From NCBI RefSeq assembly GCF_900104485.1, contig NZ_FMXQ01000004.1, positions 124,001 to 188,000 on the forward strand: a stretch of DNA of 64,000 bases, given 5' to 3'. The DNA is from Bauldia litoralis (GTDB lineage Bacteria > Pseudomonadota > Alphaproteobacteria > Rhizobiales > Kaistiaceae). This document shows, in pieces, positions 7,653 through 11,728 of the stretch. Under the pieces are notes generated by a model. It was not told the DNA's origin. It did no database searches and worked only from the letters and a program-made list of their open reading frames with translations. The number at the start of each line of letters is the position of its first letter. Positions within the stretch are counted from its first letter, which is position 1. The position numbers and the translations under genes are program-made.

Positions 7653-8597
7653 ATGACCGACGCCTTGCCGACCCATATGCGCCCGGACCGCTCGTTTCAG
7701 GGGCTGATCCTCGCGCTGCAGCGCTACTGGGCGGACTATGGCTGCGCCGTCCTCCAGCCCTACGATTCCGAGATGGGGGCGGGGACCTTTCACCCGGCGA
7801 CCACCTTGCGGGCGCTGGGACCGCGGCCGTGGAAGGCGGCCTATGTGCAGCCGTCGCGGCGACCGACCGACGGGCGCTATGGTGACAACCCCAACCGGCT
7901 GCAGCACTATTACCAGTTCCAGGTGATCATCAAGCCGTCGCCGCCGGACCTCCAGGACCTCTACCTCAAGTCGCTCGGCGCGATCGGCCTCGACATGGGG
8001 CTCCACGACGTGCGCTTCGTCGAGGACGACTGGGAGAGCCCGACGCTGGGTGCCTGGGGGCTGGGCTGGGAATGCTGGTGCGACGGCATGGAGGTGTCGC
8101 AATTCACCTATTTCCAGCAGGTCGCGGGCTTCGCCTGCGAGCCGGTGGCCGGCGAGCTGACCTACGGGCTGGAGCGGCTGGCGATGTATGTGCAGGGCGT
8201 CGACAACGTCTACGACCTCAACTTCAACGGCCGCGAGGGCGCCGACAAGGTGACCTATGGCGACGTCTTCCTCCAGGCCGAGCGGGAATACTCGCGGCAC
8301 AATTTCGAGCATGCCGACACCGAGATGCTGAAGCGCCATTTCGAGGATGCCGAGCGCGAGTGCCGGGCGCTGCTCGATGCCGGGGCACCCGGCGAGGCCG
8401 GCGCGGCGCATCAACTGGCGCTGCCGGCCTATGACCAGTGCATCAAGGCGAGCCATGCCTTCAACCTGCTCGATGCGCGCGGCGTCATCGCGGTGACCGA
8501 GCGGCAGAGCTATATCCTGCGGGTGCGCGAACTGGCCAAGGCCTGTGGCGCGGCGTGGCTGGCGACCGAGGGGGGAGGGCTGTCCGATGCGGCTTGA
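7653..8597 (+). CDS. glyQ: Glycyl-tRNA synthetase alpha subunit
   Basis: The 314-residue catalytic subunit of the bacterial alpha2-beta2 class IIc glycyl-tRNA synthetase, which forms glycyl-AMP and charges tRNA-Gly. Family blocks are unmistakable: [83 protein letters not shown] and [13 protein letters not shown]. Length is normal for the family. The 3' end overlaps the next gene by 11 bases. The beta subunit gene lies 750 bp downstream, separated by two VOC genes in the same transcription unit. Confidence 0.98.
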
Positions 8598-8952
8598 CCA
8601 CGTCAATATCCGCGCCAACGACCAGGAGGCGATGCGCGACTTCCTGGTGACGGTGCTGGGGCTGAGGGTCGGCGAGCGGCCGCCCTTCGACTTCCCCGGC
8701 TACTGGCTCTATCTCGGCGACACCGCGATCGTCCACATGCAGGGCACCGACCGCGACCCGAAGGAGGCCGGCTGGATCGACCACCTCGCCTTCGGGCCGT
8801 TCGACTTCGACGCCAAGCGGGCCGAGCTCGACGCGGCCGGCATCGCCTATCGCGCCACGCAGGTGCCGGACCGGCCGCTTCGCCAGATCTTCGTCATCGG
8901 GCCGGAGGGCGTGAAGCTCGAACTGCAATGCCCGGACGGGGTGAAGCCATGA
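8587..8952 (+). CDS. VOC family (glyoxalase/dioxygenase-fold) protein
   Basis: A 121-residue single-module vicinal-oxygen-chelate protein starting at an ATG inside the 3' end of glyQ. The module pattern is [12 protein letters not shown] (first metal ligand His in LDHVNI), the central [14 protein letters not shown] and WIDHLAFG (second His), and the terminal [10 protein letters not shown] (Glu ligand), so a metal site is likely intact. Substrate is unknown. It is coupled at both ends (11-base overlap with glyQ, ATGA overlap with the next VOC gene), so it is co-translated with glycyl-tRNA synthetase. It might detoxify a glyoxal-like by-product of glycine metabolism, but nothing in the sequence proves it. 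Confidence 0.85.
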
Positions 8953-9341
8953 GCCAGGCCAAGATCATCGCCCATGCGCCGATCCTGATGGTGCGGAACG
9001 TCCCGGCGAGCGTCGCCTACTGGGTCGACAAGGTCGGCTTCACGGTCGGCGGCATGTGGGGCGAGCCGCCGGACTTCGCCATCCTCAAGCGCGACAGCGC
9101 CCACCTGATGCTGAGCCAGGTCCGCGCCGAGGACACCATCGTTCCCCACTGGCGGATGCGCGACCAGATGTGGAACGCCTATTTCTGGGTCGACGATGCG
9201 CGCGCCATGTATGACGAGATGAAGAGCCGCGGCGCGACCATCGATTACGAACTCGGTGAGAAGCCGTACGGCGTGCTCGAATTCGGCATCCAGGACCTCG
9301 ACGACCAGGACATCGCCTTCGGCCAGGACCTGGGAAAGTAG
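8949..9341 (+). CDS. VOC family protein, glyoxalase/bleomycin-resistance-like
   Basis: A 130-residue protein with its ATG in the stop of the preceding VOC gene. The order of elements is AHAPILMVRNVPASVAYWVDKVGF, GGMWGEPPDFAILKRDSAHLML, WNAYFWVDDARAMYDEMKSRG and YGVLEFGIQDLDDQDIAFGQD. The N-terminal His of active glyoxalases is replaced (PILMVRNV) while a Glu remains in GVLEFGIQD, so it may bind a ligand rather than catalyse. Such proteins often act as drug- or metabolite-sequestering dimers. It precedes glyS by 11 bases. Function unassigned. Confidence 0.85.
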   Translation: MSQAKIIAHAPILMVRNVPASVAYWVDKVGFTVGGMWGEPPDFAILKRDSAHLMLSQVRAEDTIVPHWRMRDQMWNAYFWVDDARAMYDEMKSRGATIDYELGEKPYGVLEFGIQDLDDQDIAFGQDLGK

Positions 9342-9352
9342 AATAACCGACC

Positions 9353-11728
9353 ATGCCTGATCTTTTGTTCGAACTGTTTTCGGAAGAGATTCCCGCTCGC
9401 ATGCAGCGCAAGGCGGCGGACGACCTGCGCAAGCTGGTCACCGACGCGCTGGTCGAGGCGGGGCTGGTCTATGAGGGCGCCCGGGCTTTCGCCACGCCGC
9501 GCCGGCTGGCGCTGACCGTCCACGGGCTGCCGGCGCGCTCGCCGGACACCCGCGAGGAGCGAAAAGGGCCGCGCGTCGGCGCGCCCGACAAGGCGATCGA
9601 GGGGTTCCTGCGCGGCGCCGGGTTGTCGTCGATCGAGCAGGCGACGATCCAGGAGACCAAGAAGGGCGACGTCTATGTCGCCGTCATCGAGAAGGCCGGG
9701 CGGACGGCGGAAGAGGTGATCGCCGAGATCGTGCCGGCCGTGGTGCGCGGCTTCCCGTGGCCGAAGGCGATGCGCTGGGGCGCGGCCTCGGCCAGGCCGG
9801 GCAGCCTGACCTGGGTGCGGCCGCTGCATTCGGTGCTTTGCGTCTTCGGGCCGGAGACCGAGGACACCGAGGTGGTGCCCTTCGAGATCGACGGCATCGT
9901 CTCCGGCGACACGACCCACGGCCACCGCTTCATGGCGCCGGACGCGATCCGGGTGAAGCGCTTCGACGACTACGGGCCGAAGCTGGAAAAGGCCAGGGTG
10001 GTGCTCGACGCCGACCGGCGGAAGGAGATGATCCTCGCCGATGCCCGCGACCGGGCGCTGGCGCTCGGCCTCGAACTTGTCGAGGACGAGGGGCTGCTGG
10101 AAGAAGTCGCCGGGCTGGTCGAATGGCCGGTGGTGCTGGTCGGCTCCTTCGACGCGGACTTCCTGGAGATCCCGCCGGAGGTCATCCGCGCCACCATCCG
10201 CGCCAACCAGAAGTGCTTTGTGCTCCAAGAGGCGGGGAGCGCGGAACGCGCGACAGGGAAAGAAAATCCTTCCGGTGCCGCGTCCTTCGAGGCTCCGCTG
10301 CGCGGAGCACCTCAGGATGGCGAGGGGAGAGGAAGTGTTGAGGGTGCGGATGTGGCAGGCAAATCGCCTGGCCATCCTGAGGCGCCGGCAGCGGCAGAGG
10401 AGCAGGGCGCCCCGCTTCGCCATCCTGAGGTGCGAGCGGAGCGAGCCTCGAAGGACGCACAGGCGCGCCTCGCCAACCGCTTCGTCCTGGTTGCCAACAT
10501 CGAGGCGCCGGATGGCGGCAAGGCGATCGTCGCCGGCAACGAGCGGGTCATCCGGGCGCGCCTCGCCGACGCGCGGCATTTCTGGCGGACCGACCTCGCG
10601 CCGCTGGCCGGCTATCGCGAATCGAGCGACAAGCCGCTCGACCAGCGGCTGGCCAAGCTCAGAGCGCAGAACATCGTCTTCCACGAGAAGCTGGGGACGC
10701 AAGGCGAACGGGTCGAACGCATCGCGCGGCTGGCCCGCGAGATCGCGCCGCTGGTCGGCGCCGATGCCGGCAAGGCGGAGCGGGCGGCCAATCTCGCCAA
10801 GGCCGATCTTGTCTCGGAGATGGTCGGCGAGTTTCCGGAACTGCAGGGGCTGATGGGCCGCTACTACGCCGCGGCGCAGGGCGAGGACCCGTCGGTCGCG
10901 GCGGCGATCGAGGATCACTACAAGCCGGTGGGCCCGTCCGACAGCGTGCCGACCGACCCGGTGGCGATTGCCGTGGCGCTGGCCGAGAAACTCGACATGC
11001 TGGTCGGCTTCTGGTTCGAAGAAGAGAAGCCGACGGGCTCAAAGGATCCGTATGCGCTGCGGAGGGCGGCTCTTGGGGCTCTCCGTGTGATCCTTTCGAA
11101 CGAGGCTCGGCTTCACCTTGAAGAAATAATCGGTTTCGCCTGGCGTGCCCACGCGGCGAGGAACACTGGCATAACGACAGCGGCACGCCGCGAGATCTTG
11201 ACGCCTGATCTCCTCGCCTTCTTTGCCGATCGCCTCAAGGTCCAGCTTCGCGAGCAGGGCGCGCGGCACGATCTTGTCGATGCGGTGATCGCGCTCGAGG
11301 GGCAGGACGACCTCCTCCTCATCGTCCGCCGCGTCGAGGCGCTCGGGCGTTTTCTCGAGACCGAGGACGGAAAAAACCTGCTGGCCGGGACCAAGCGGGC
11401 TGCCAACATTCTCCGCGAGGAGGAAAAGAAAGCCGGCGAATCCTTCGACGGTGCCGTCGATGCCGGTCGGCTGGTCGCGCCGGAGGAAAAGGCGCTCTAC
11501 GAGGCGATCGGCGCGGCGACCGGCGAAGTCGAGGCCGCCGTCGCGGTCGAGGATTTCGACGACGCGATGCGGGCGCTGGCGCGGCTGCGCGCGCCGGTCG
11601 ATGCGTTTTTCGAGGCGGTGCGCGTCAATGACGACGACCCAGAAATCCGGGCCAACCGGCTCCGTCTCCTCAACCTGATCCGCGAGGCGACGCGCGCCGT
11701 GGCGGACTTCTCCAGGATCGAAGGCTAG
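9353..11728 (+). CDS. glyS: Glycyl-tRNA synthetase beta subunit with in-frame repeat-derived insertion
   Basis: The 791-residue beta subunit, needed for tRNA recognition. Family landmarks: [18 protein letters not shown] at the start, [101 protein letters not shown] and the C-terminal DALR-like region with [17 protein letters not shown]. Between CFVLQ (to residue 292) and RLANRF (from residue about 372) lie some 79 residues where homologues have a short linker such as RDPKTGK. The insert is Gly/Ala/Glu-rich and is encoded by inverted repeats at 10281-10320 and 10419-10457. The frame stays open, so a functional subunit with a surface loop is expected. Confidence 0.95.
10281..10457. repeat. Palindromic mosaic element inside glyS (inverted copies with hairpin cores)
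   Basis: The 40-mer at 10281-10320 and the 39-mer at 10419-10457 are inverted copies of one repeat with few mismatches; each is itself palindromic (for example CTCCGC-TGC-GCGGAG at 10293-10307). A shorter third fragment in the orientation of the right copy sits at 10370-10384 (GCCATCCTGAGG core). The whole foreign stretch spans about 10229-10466. Units of this type, starting CCTTCGAGGCTC and ending CCTCAGGATGG, are the sort of intergenic mosaic element seen widely in Rhizobiales; here it is read through as protein. Confidence 0.85.

Follow-up and report, generated by a model that had tools for sequence, protein, structure and literature searches.

A REP-like palindrome pair lying in frame within glyS of Bauldia litoralis, and recurrent palindromic inserts at the same GlyS loop in Hyphomicrobiales

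The gene for the beta subunit of glycyl-tRNA synthetase (GlyRS) of Bauldia litoralis (genome G000) carries a long in-frame insert composed of palindromes. We consider it very probable that a REP-like palindrome dimer landed in a permissive turn of glyS, in a hydrophilic and stop-poor frame, that it is translated as a tolerated loop, and that unrelated palindromes recur at this place. In-frame REPs are already known; a single gene in which several palindrome families have landed repeatedly at the same place is, as far as the open-licence literature searched shows, new. The recurrent uptake of unrelated palindromes was missing from the initial annotation of the window (the whole 64-kb stretch of DNA analysed) and is more interesting than the single insert.

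In the proposed course of events, a dispersed REP-like element, often present as an inverted hairpin pair, would have entered glyS where one strand turns into the next (site A). The reading frame of the gene was preserved, and the element is in the frame giving SFE..APQD and HPEV..ASKD. The glyS mRNA would be translated straight through the insert, as suggested by the protein model and by a frame that is open in every lineage seen, and on the same grounds the 74 extra residues would form a disordered hydrophilic loop tolerated by the enzyme. Site A and an inter-helix loop, site B, have repeatedly taken up palindromes of different families within Hyphomicrobiales, and glyS may be a recurrent acceptor because both loops tolerate extra residues.

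The glyS product is identified as GlyRS beta both by Pfam (PF02092) and by NCBIfam (TIGR00211, scoring 735.8 bits where 300 is the cut-off, in two stretches with the best at 368-789). As a rule glyS is an essential gene. Its linker between CFVL and LANRF comprises 81 residues here; an ordinary linker has about 7. An insert of about 79 residues between CFVLQ and RLANRF, with the frame kept, had been proposed in the initial annotation; both points were confirmed, the excess being refined to about 74 residues within 791 open codons. Profile searches of the product found no separate Pfam or NCBIfam domain within the insert. In a linker-length comparison all other parsed GlyS loci had 5-10 residues here, with seven exceptions (L033, L034, L032, L102, L104, L138 and L105). 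Six GlyS loci fell outside this parse (L093, L098, L103, L149, L176 and L178); read separately, L103 has a longer linker, L149, L176 and L178 have short ones, the sequence of L093, at the edge of a contig, starts within the linker, and L098 yielded no result. Upstream, two glyoxalase-family genes (PF00903; window 8590-9341, plus strand) lie between glyQ (7653-8597, PF02091) and glyS.

Table 1 Positions in the window of glyS, its insert and the repeat copies
Feature	Position	Strand	Remarks
glyS, glycyl-tRNA synthetase beta subunit	9353..11728	+	791 aa, open throughout; Pfam and NCBIfam
Site A insert in glyS	10229..10465	+	codons 293-371; about 74 aa above the usual linker; predicted disordered 304-368
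Hairpin copy 1	10279..10323	+	exact core 10284-10319; reads as 15 residues
Partial third copy	10364..10385	-	half-site core 10373-10382
Hairpin copy 2, inverted	10417..10458	-	exact core 10421-10454; reads as 14 residues
Site B position	11291..11305	+	residues 647-651, ALEGQ; empty here, palindrome-filled in other lineages; placed by eye

Two inverted hairpin copies and a fragment of a third had been recognised in the insert, and this is borne out by the arm matches and by the count of a 10-mer. The inverted arms 10307-10323/10417-10433 (17 nt) and 10280-10295/10443-10458 (16 nt) are 100% identical, and those of the third copy (10307-10328/10364-10385, 22 nt) are 86% identical. The 10-mer CCTCAGGATG occurs three times in the 64-kb window, always inside the glyS insert, against an expectation of 0.18; in 100 shuffles a count of three was never attained. 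The predicted RNA fold of 10270-10470 (201 nt) has -132.7 kcal/mol (z -7.94; 0/200 shuffles as low), most of it contributed by the two hairpin copies pairing with each other. On its own, copy 1 gives a modest DNA stem (z -1.52), a compound one with a bulge, and copy 2 a weaker one (z -0.39). The sequence of copy 1 is exactly that of four other copies in the genome.

The core CCTTCGAG-N10..34-CCTCAGGATG has 37 exact copies, grouped into 27 loci, in the 5.09-Mb genome, and its reversed control has none; the presence of the repeat elsewhere in the genome, on which the earlier proposal of a mobile palindromic element within glyS depended, is thereby established. The dispersed and in-frame parts of that proposal stand, and mobility is suggested by the dispersal. 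Cores are 34-43 bp long, with 16-25 nt between CCTTCGAG and CCTCAGGATG over the 37 copies, and 35 of them start with CGTC. Directly 3' of the core, at a point that may not coincide with the end of the element, 28/37 copies have GCG and none has CCA. Nine of ten close pairs of copies are inverted, the distance between their starts being 94-145 bp, and one is direct. The glyS pair has this standard geometry (starts 137 bp apart), so the usual dimer was probably the thing inserted. The element was found in 15 of the 28 genomes of the family Kaistiaceae, to which NCBI taxonomy assigns both Kaistia and Bauldia; one of them, G024, has 170 copies and yet an uninterrupted GlyS linker, hence copy number alone does not predict insertion into glyS.

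Mobilisation by a RAYT was rejected: the tag is CGTC rather than GTAG, a profile search for the Y1 transposase (PF01797) gave no match in the own genome, and among the 28 family genomes it gave a single 40-position fragment with a stop. Insertion may be due to some activity other than a Y1 transposase. Four Rfam matches (E 0.07-0.46) to microRNA models were far below gathering thresholds and were taken as chance. When 72,556 plasmid records were searched by blastn with the 201-nt insert, matches came only from Methylobacterium (2) and Ancylobacter (1), with no Sinorhizobium record.

The closest known systems are the GTAG and CGTC REPs, portrayed by Di Nocera et al. (2013, PMC3733652) as small, mostly intergenic palindromes, often in oppositely oriented dimers, some of which lie inside genes, including uvrA and those of tRNA synthetases. 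The CGTC-type REPs are given there as lacking a dedicated transposase, with CGTC, TGTC or CCTC at one end, stems of 8-9 bp, loops mostly of 4-5 nt and an unpaired tail mostly fitting CCA. The same source mentions that recB of two Xanthomonas species carries unlike REPs at nearly identical positions, and that REPs occupy differing sites in the other genes of that category; its main text makes no mention of glyS. The element in glyS resembles CGTC REPs in its CGTC start, in the inverted arrangement of nine of its ten close pairs and in the lack of a PF01797 match in its genome (the search covered tyrosine transposases), but differs in the 16-25 nt between its conserved arms, as against REP stems of 8-9 bp with loops mostly of 4-5 nt. 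The parallel with Rickettsia palindromic elements, drawn in the initial annotation, holds in the sense of working alike. These elements are dispersed and found in frame inside conserved protein genes (Ogata et al. 2000, as cited in PMC10969869 and PMC2229807), and ours is likewise palindromic, dispersed and in frame in conserved genes, here glyS and uvrA. However, Rickettsia belongs to another order and has many genes hit, whereas here few are, one of them recurrently; moreover, the present element lies largely outside genes. Rhizobium-specific intergenic mosaic elements (RIME) are paired palindromes between rhizobial genes. They were reportedly described by Osteras and colleagues in 1995 (a title cited in PMC2573895). 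The unit in glyS was likened to a Rhizobiales intergenic mosaic element in the initial annotation and may be a RIME. Searches confined to the open-licence literature listed no report of palindromes in glyS.

Copies inside genes were sought with a codon-frame test that asks for a single frame without stops across the element, with codon usage resembling that of coding sequence in each flank. It covered 110 loci with 156 copies (27 loci in G000, 36 in G003, 29 in G002 and 18 in G007), including 17/21 non-glyS loci of G007 and 51/63 core copies of G003; the codon model was trained on just 27 frames of the window, and ten tested loci had a flank shorter than 240 nt. Four of the 110 loci were intragenic: glyS of G000, G002 and G003, and uvrA of G007. 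Alignment adds glyS of G007 as a fifth case, which the test did not pick up because the insert takes the place of the downstream flank. The element is therefore rarely inside genes in the four genomes tested. The uvrA gene of G007, a Bauldia-type genome (L300, 2-1888, minus strand, contig C32), holds the same element in the same frame as glyS, reading SFET..APQDE and HPEV..AASK. Long open frames over other copies were discarded as candidates: eight of ten had no Pfam match, and in the CoxE-like (L007) and ImuB-like (L029) frames the repeat occurs only ahead of the domain, so that it is probably upstream of the true start. In L029 (3-2162, minus strand) the ImuB-like frame has a palindrome pair immediately before it or in its N-terminal part, with the IMS domain at 232-357.

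The frame used in glyS stands out from the others the element offers. Over 149 copies starting with CGTC, the three frames of the inverted hairpin contain a stop in 7, 10 and 149 copies, the used frame being the first. Its mean GRAVY is -1.15 with 0.13 Cys per copy, compared with -0.25 and 0.88 for the second, and it alone combines a near absence of stops with a hydrophilic reading. The frames of the forward hairpin are nearly alike in stops (25, 28 and 24 of 149), so the frame argument rests on the inverted hairpin. Hydrophobic residues make up 5-18% of all 16 linkers measured. In an AlphaFold2 model of GlyS (40 sequences; mean pLDDT 88.1), whose top structural matches are bacterial GlyRS entries including E. 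coli 7yse, residues 304-368 are the sole segment of at least three residues with pLDDT below 50, flanked by strands 289-293 and 373-381. The insert is thus predicted to sit in a disordered loop. Site B falls in the same model between helices 639-646 and 654-668. Splicing or bypassing of the insert found no support: the listed GlyS matches lack internal stops and the inserts read are in frame, which bypass would not require, although loci were read as open frames and out-of-frame inserts could thus be missed.

Alignment with related GlyS sequences, as proposed in the initial annotation, showed that insert-bearing close relatives share the same palindrome family and that the others have a short linker; no unrelated conserved domain occupies the place. 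The same element family is found at the same glyS codons in G002, G003 and G007, with different hairpin tips and spacers, and glyS has an ordinary 6-residue linker in G004 and no insert in G008 and G010; the G001 contig ends within the linker. In a GlyS tree (FastTree, insert columns left out), G002 and G004 are sisters with support 1.0, G000, G003 and G001 group together (0.953), and G007 takes a weakly supported position close to G008 and G010. The glyS copies carry the 3' end typical of their own genome, namely AGG in G002 (49/49 among the copies listed) and G007 (23/23), and GCG in G003 (43/47, by a pattern that finds RSG ends only) and G000 (28/37). Identity of G000 at glyS four-fold sites is 0.669, 0.658 and 0.542 with G003, G002 and G007, respectively. 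The exact match of the first G000 hairpin to four other copies in its own genome, despite such diverged four-fold sites, together with own-genome 3' ends, makes the glyS palindromes look younger than the species splits, or rewritten since.

A single ancestral insertion in Kaistiaceae, subsequently lost in G004, G008 and G010, with the remaining copies homogenised by gene conversion with intergenic ones, is a serious contender that we nevertheless rate as somewhat doubtful. It would account for the codon position, frame and dimer layout common to G000, G002, G003 and G007, and for core arms that are exactly shared in spite of the divergence of the surrounding gene. Frame identity was dropped as proof of common descent owing to uvrA, where the same frame is used in a different gene and hence needs no common origin. 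An ancestral insertion would moreover require a precise loss in G004, the fully supported sister of G002, and sits poorly with the own-genome 3' ends of the glyS copies. We lean towards separate gains rather than loss plus conversion, since no precise loss in G004 is then needed; the glyS copies would have been gained separately or rewritten by recombination with intergenic copies, a process suggested by the observed pattern.

An even sample of the order was also surveyed, in which 391 of 397 genomes were GlyS-positive. The sign of an insert was a GlyS match split in two at the linker; G250 and G394 were dropped on account of contig ends, and G247 on account of two gene copies, which are diverged (L195 and L207; identity with the query 70% and 50%). 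Thirteen of the 391 genomes, from seven genera (g1, g4, g42, g109, g39, g68 and g31) and four families, had a split linker (G000, G002, G003, G007, G133, G216, G221, G237, G267, G314, G347, G366 and G395), a lower bound because inserts too short to split the match escape. Genera g42, g109, g39, g68 and g31 also include congeners with one uninterrupted match. A fold z of -4 or below was obtained for eight of the 13 split linkers, those of the four Kaistiaceae and of G216, G237, G366 and G395. Among the nine genomes outside Kaistiaceae, five carry other palindromes and four, all of genus g42 (G133, G221, G314 and G347), a non-palindromic insert at site A. Additional long linkers occur in L102 (the Dino_bin37 MAG), L104 (a Bosea MAG), L105 (Bosea sp. 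Leaf344) and L138 (an uncultured Rhizobiales). The inserts of L104, L105, L138 and G267 are repeats, but their fold z is only -2.1 to -3.2 (G267, -2.6). In a Jiella locus (L103) the long linker at site A is not palindromic, but site B is.

Most of the inserts examined are dispersed in their own genomes. At E <= 1e-6, 123 matches were found for G216, 31 for G395, 13 for G267 and 33 for the site B insert of G314, and at E <= 1 there were 74 for L102, 55 for L104, 63 for L138 and 24 for L105; these searches used a joined query, and some matches come from the neighbour's piece. The insert of G366 had five matches at E <= 1e-6 and, among the matches listed, only its own place. The site A insert with GGGRVGVGFGSLTK is shared by L200, L202 and L204 (G221, G347 and G314, all of g42). 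G237 has an insert related to the GGGRVGVGFGSLTK-type one, followed by palindromes.

The two acceptor loops emerged when 151 insert rows of at least 15 residues, from 119 distinct GlyS sequences, were placed on a Kaistia reference. Rows with z <= -4 made up 9/20 at site A (289-294) and 6/12 at site B (551-559), compared with 0/25 at 337-350, 2/85 at 497-529 and 0/9 at the remaining positions. Sites A and B thus hold 15 of the 17 such rows, or 15/32 rows there versus 2/119 elsewhere (Fisher test, p = 3e-10, overstated because rows share ancestry and genomes were picked for a split linker). The contrast between sites is large despite the inflated p-value. The length-variable region 497-529 indicates that GlyS loops can grow mostly without palindromes.

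This distribution bears on what the inserts might do for the cell. A regulatory mRNA hairpin that delays ribosomes or serves as an RNase III substrate, sets the level of GlyRS beta and is selected for that, would fit the very stable fold (z -7.94). It would also fit the finding that strong palindromes keep turning up at two sites and are mostly missing from another region of variable length. We regard it as quite unlikely, as the insert is absent from most sampled relatives, two different sites serve, the element lies outside genes at nearly all loci tested, and a hydrophilic reading kept in frame suggests that selection acts on the protein. A functional domain of GlyRS beta, for example a tRNA- or partner-binding extension, could be seen in the occurrence of the segment in Bauldia and in no fewer than three species of a single genus, and in the non-palindromic GGGRVGVGFGSLTK insert that three g42 genomes share at the same place. 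It is nonetheless highly improbable: by eye no sequence is evidently common to the lineages, the segment is predicted to be disordered and has no separate Pfam or NCBIfam domain, and close relatives do without it. It is also unlikely, if a little less so than either of these, that the two loops are preferred targets, with the spreading machinery drawn there or hairpins selected to tune GlyRS-beta synthesis and thereby recruiting unrelated palindromes. The tolerated loop, filled by different palindromes on separate occasions, remains our preferred reading.

Taken as such, glyS offers a repeated natural experiment on intergenic repeats becoming protein, with one enzyme, two loops and several element families. 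The availability of empty and filled relatives makes it testable whether random hits were filtered by protein tolerance or insertion was targeted. The sites also mark positions where GlyRS beta appears able to take 40-90 extra residues. As a separate observation, the GlyS of Sphingobium psychrophilum (L116) has inserts at reference positions 375, 614 and 618 (z -2.8, -2.4 and -3.5), which might belong to a further REP type occupying different positions in glyS.
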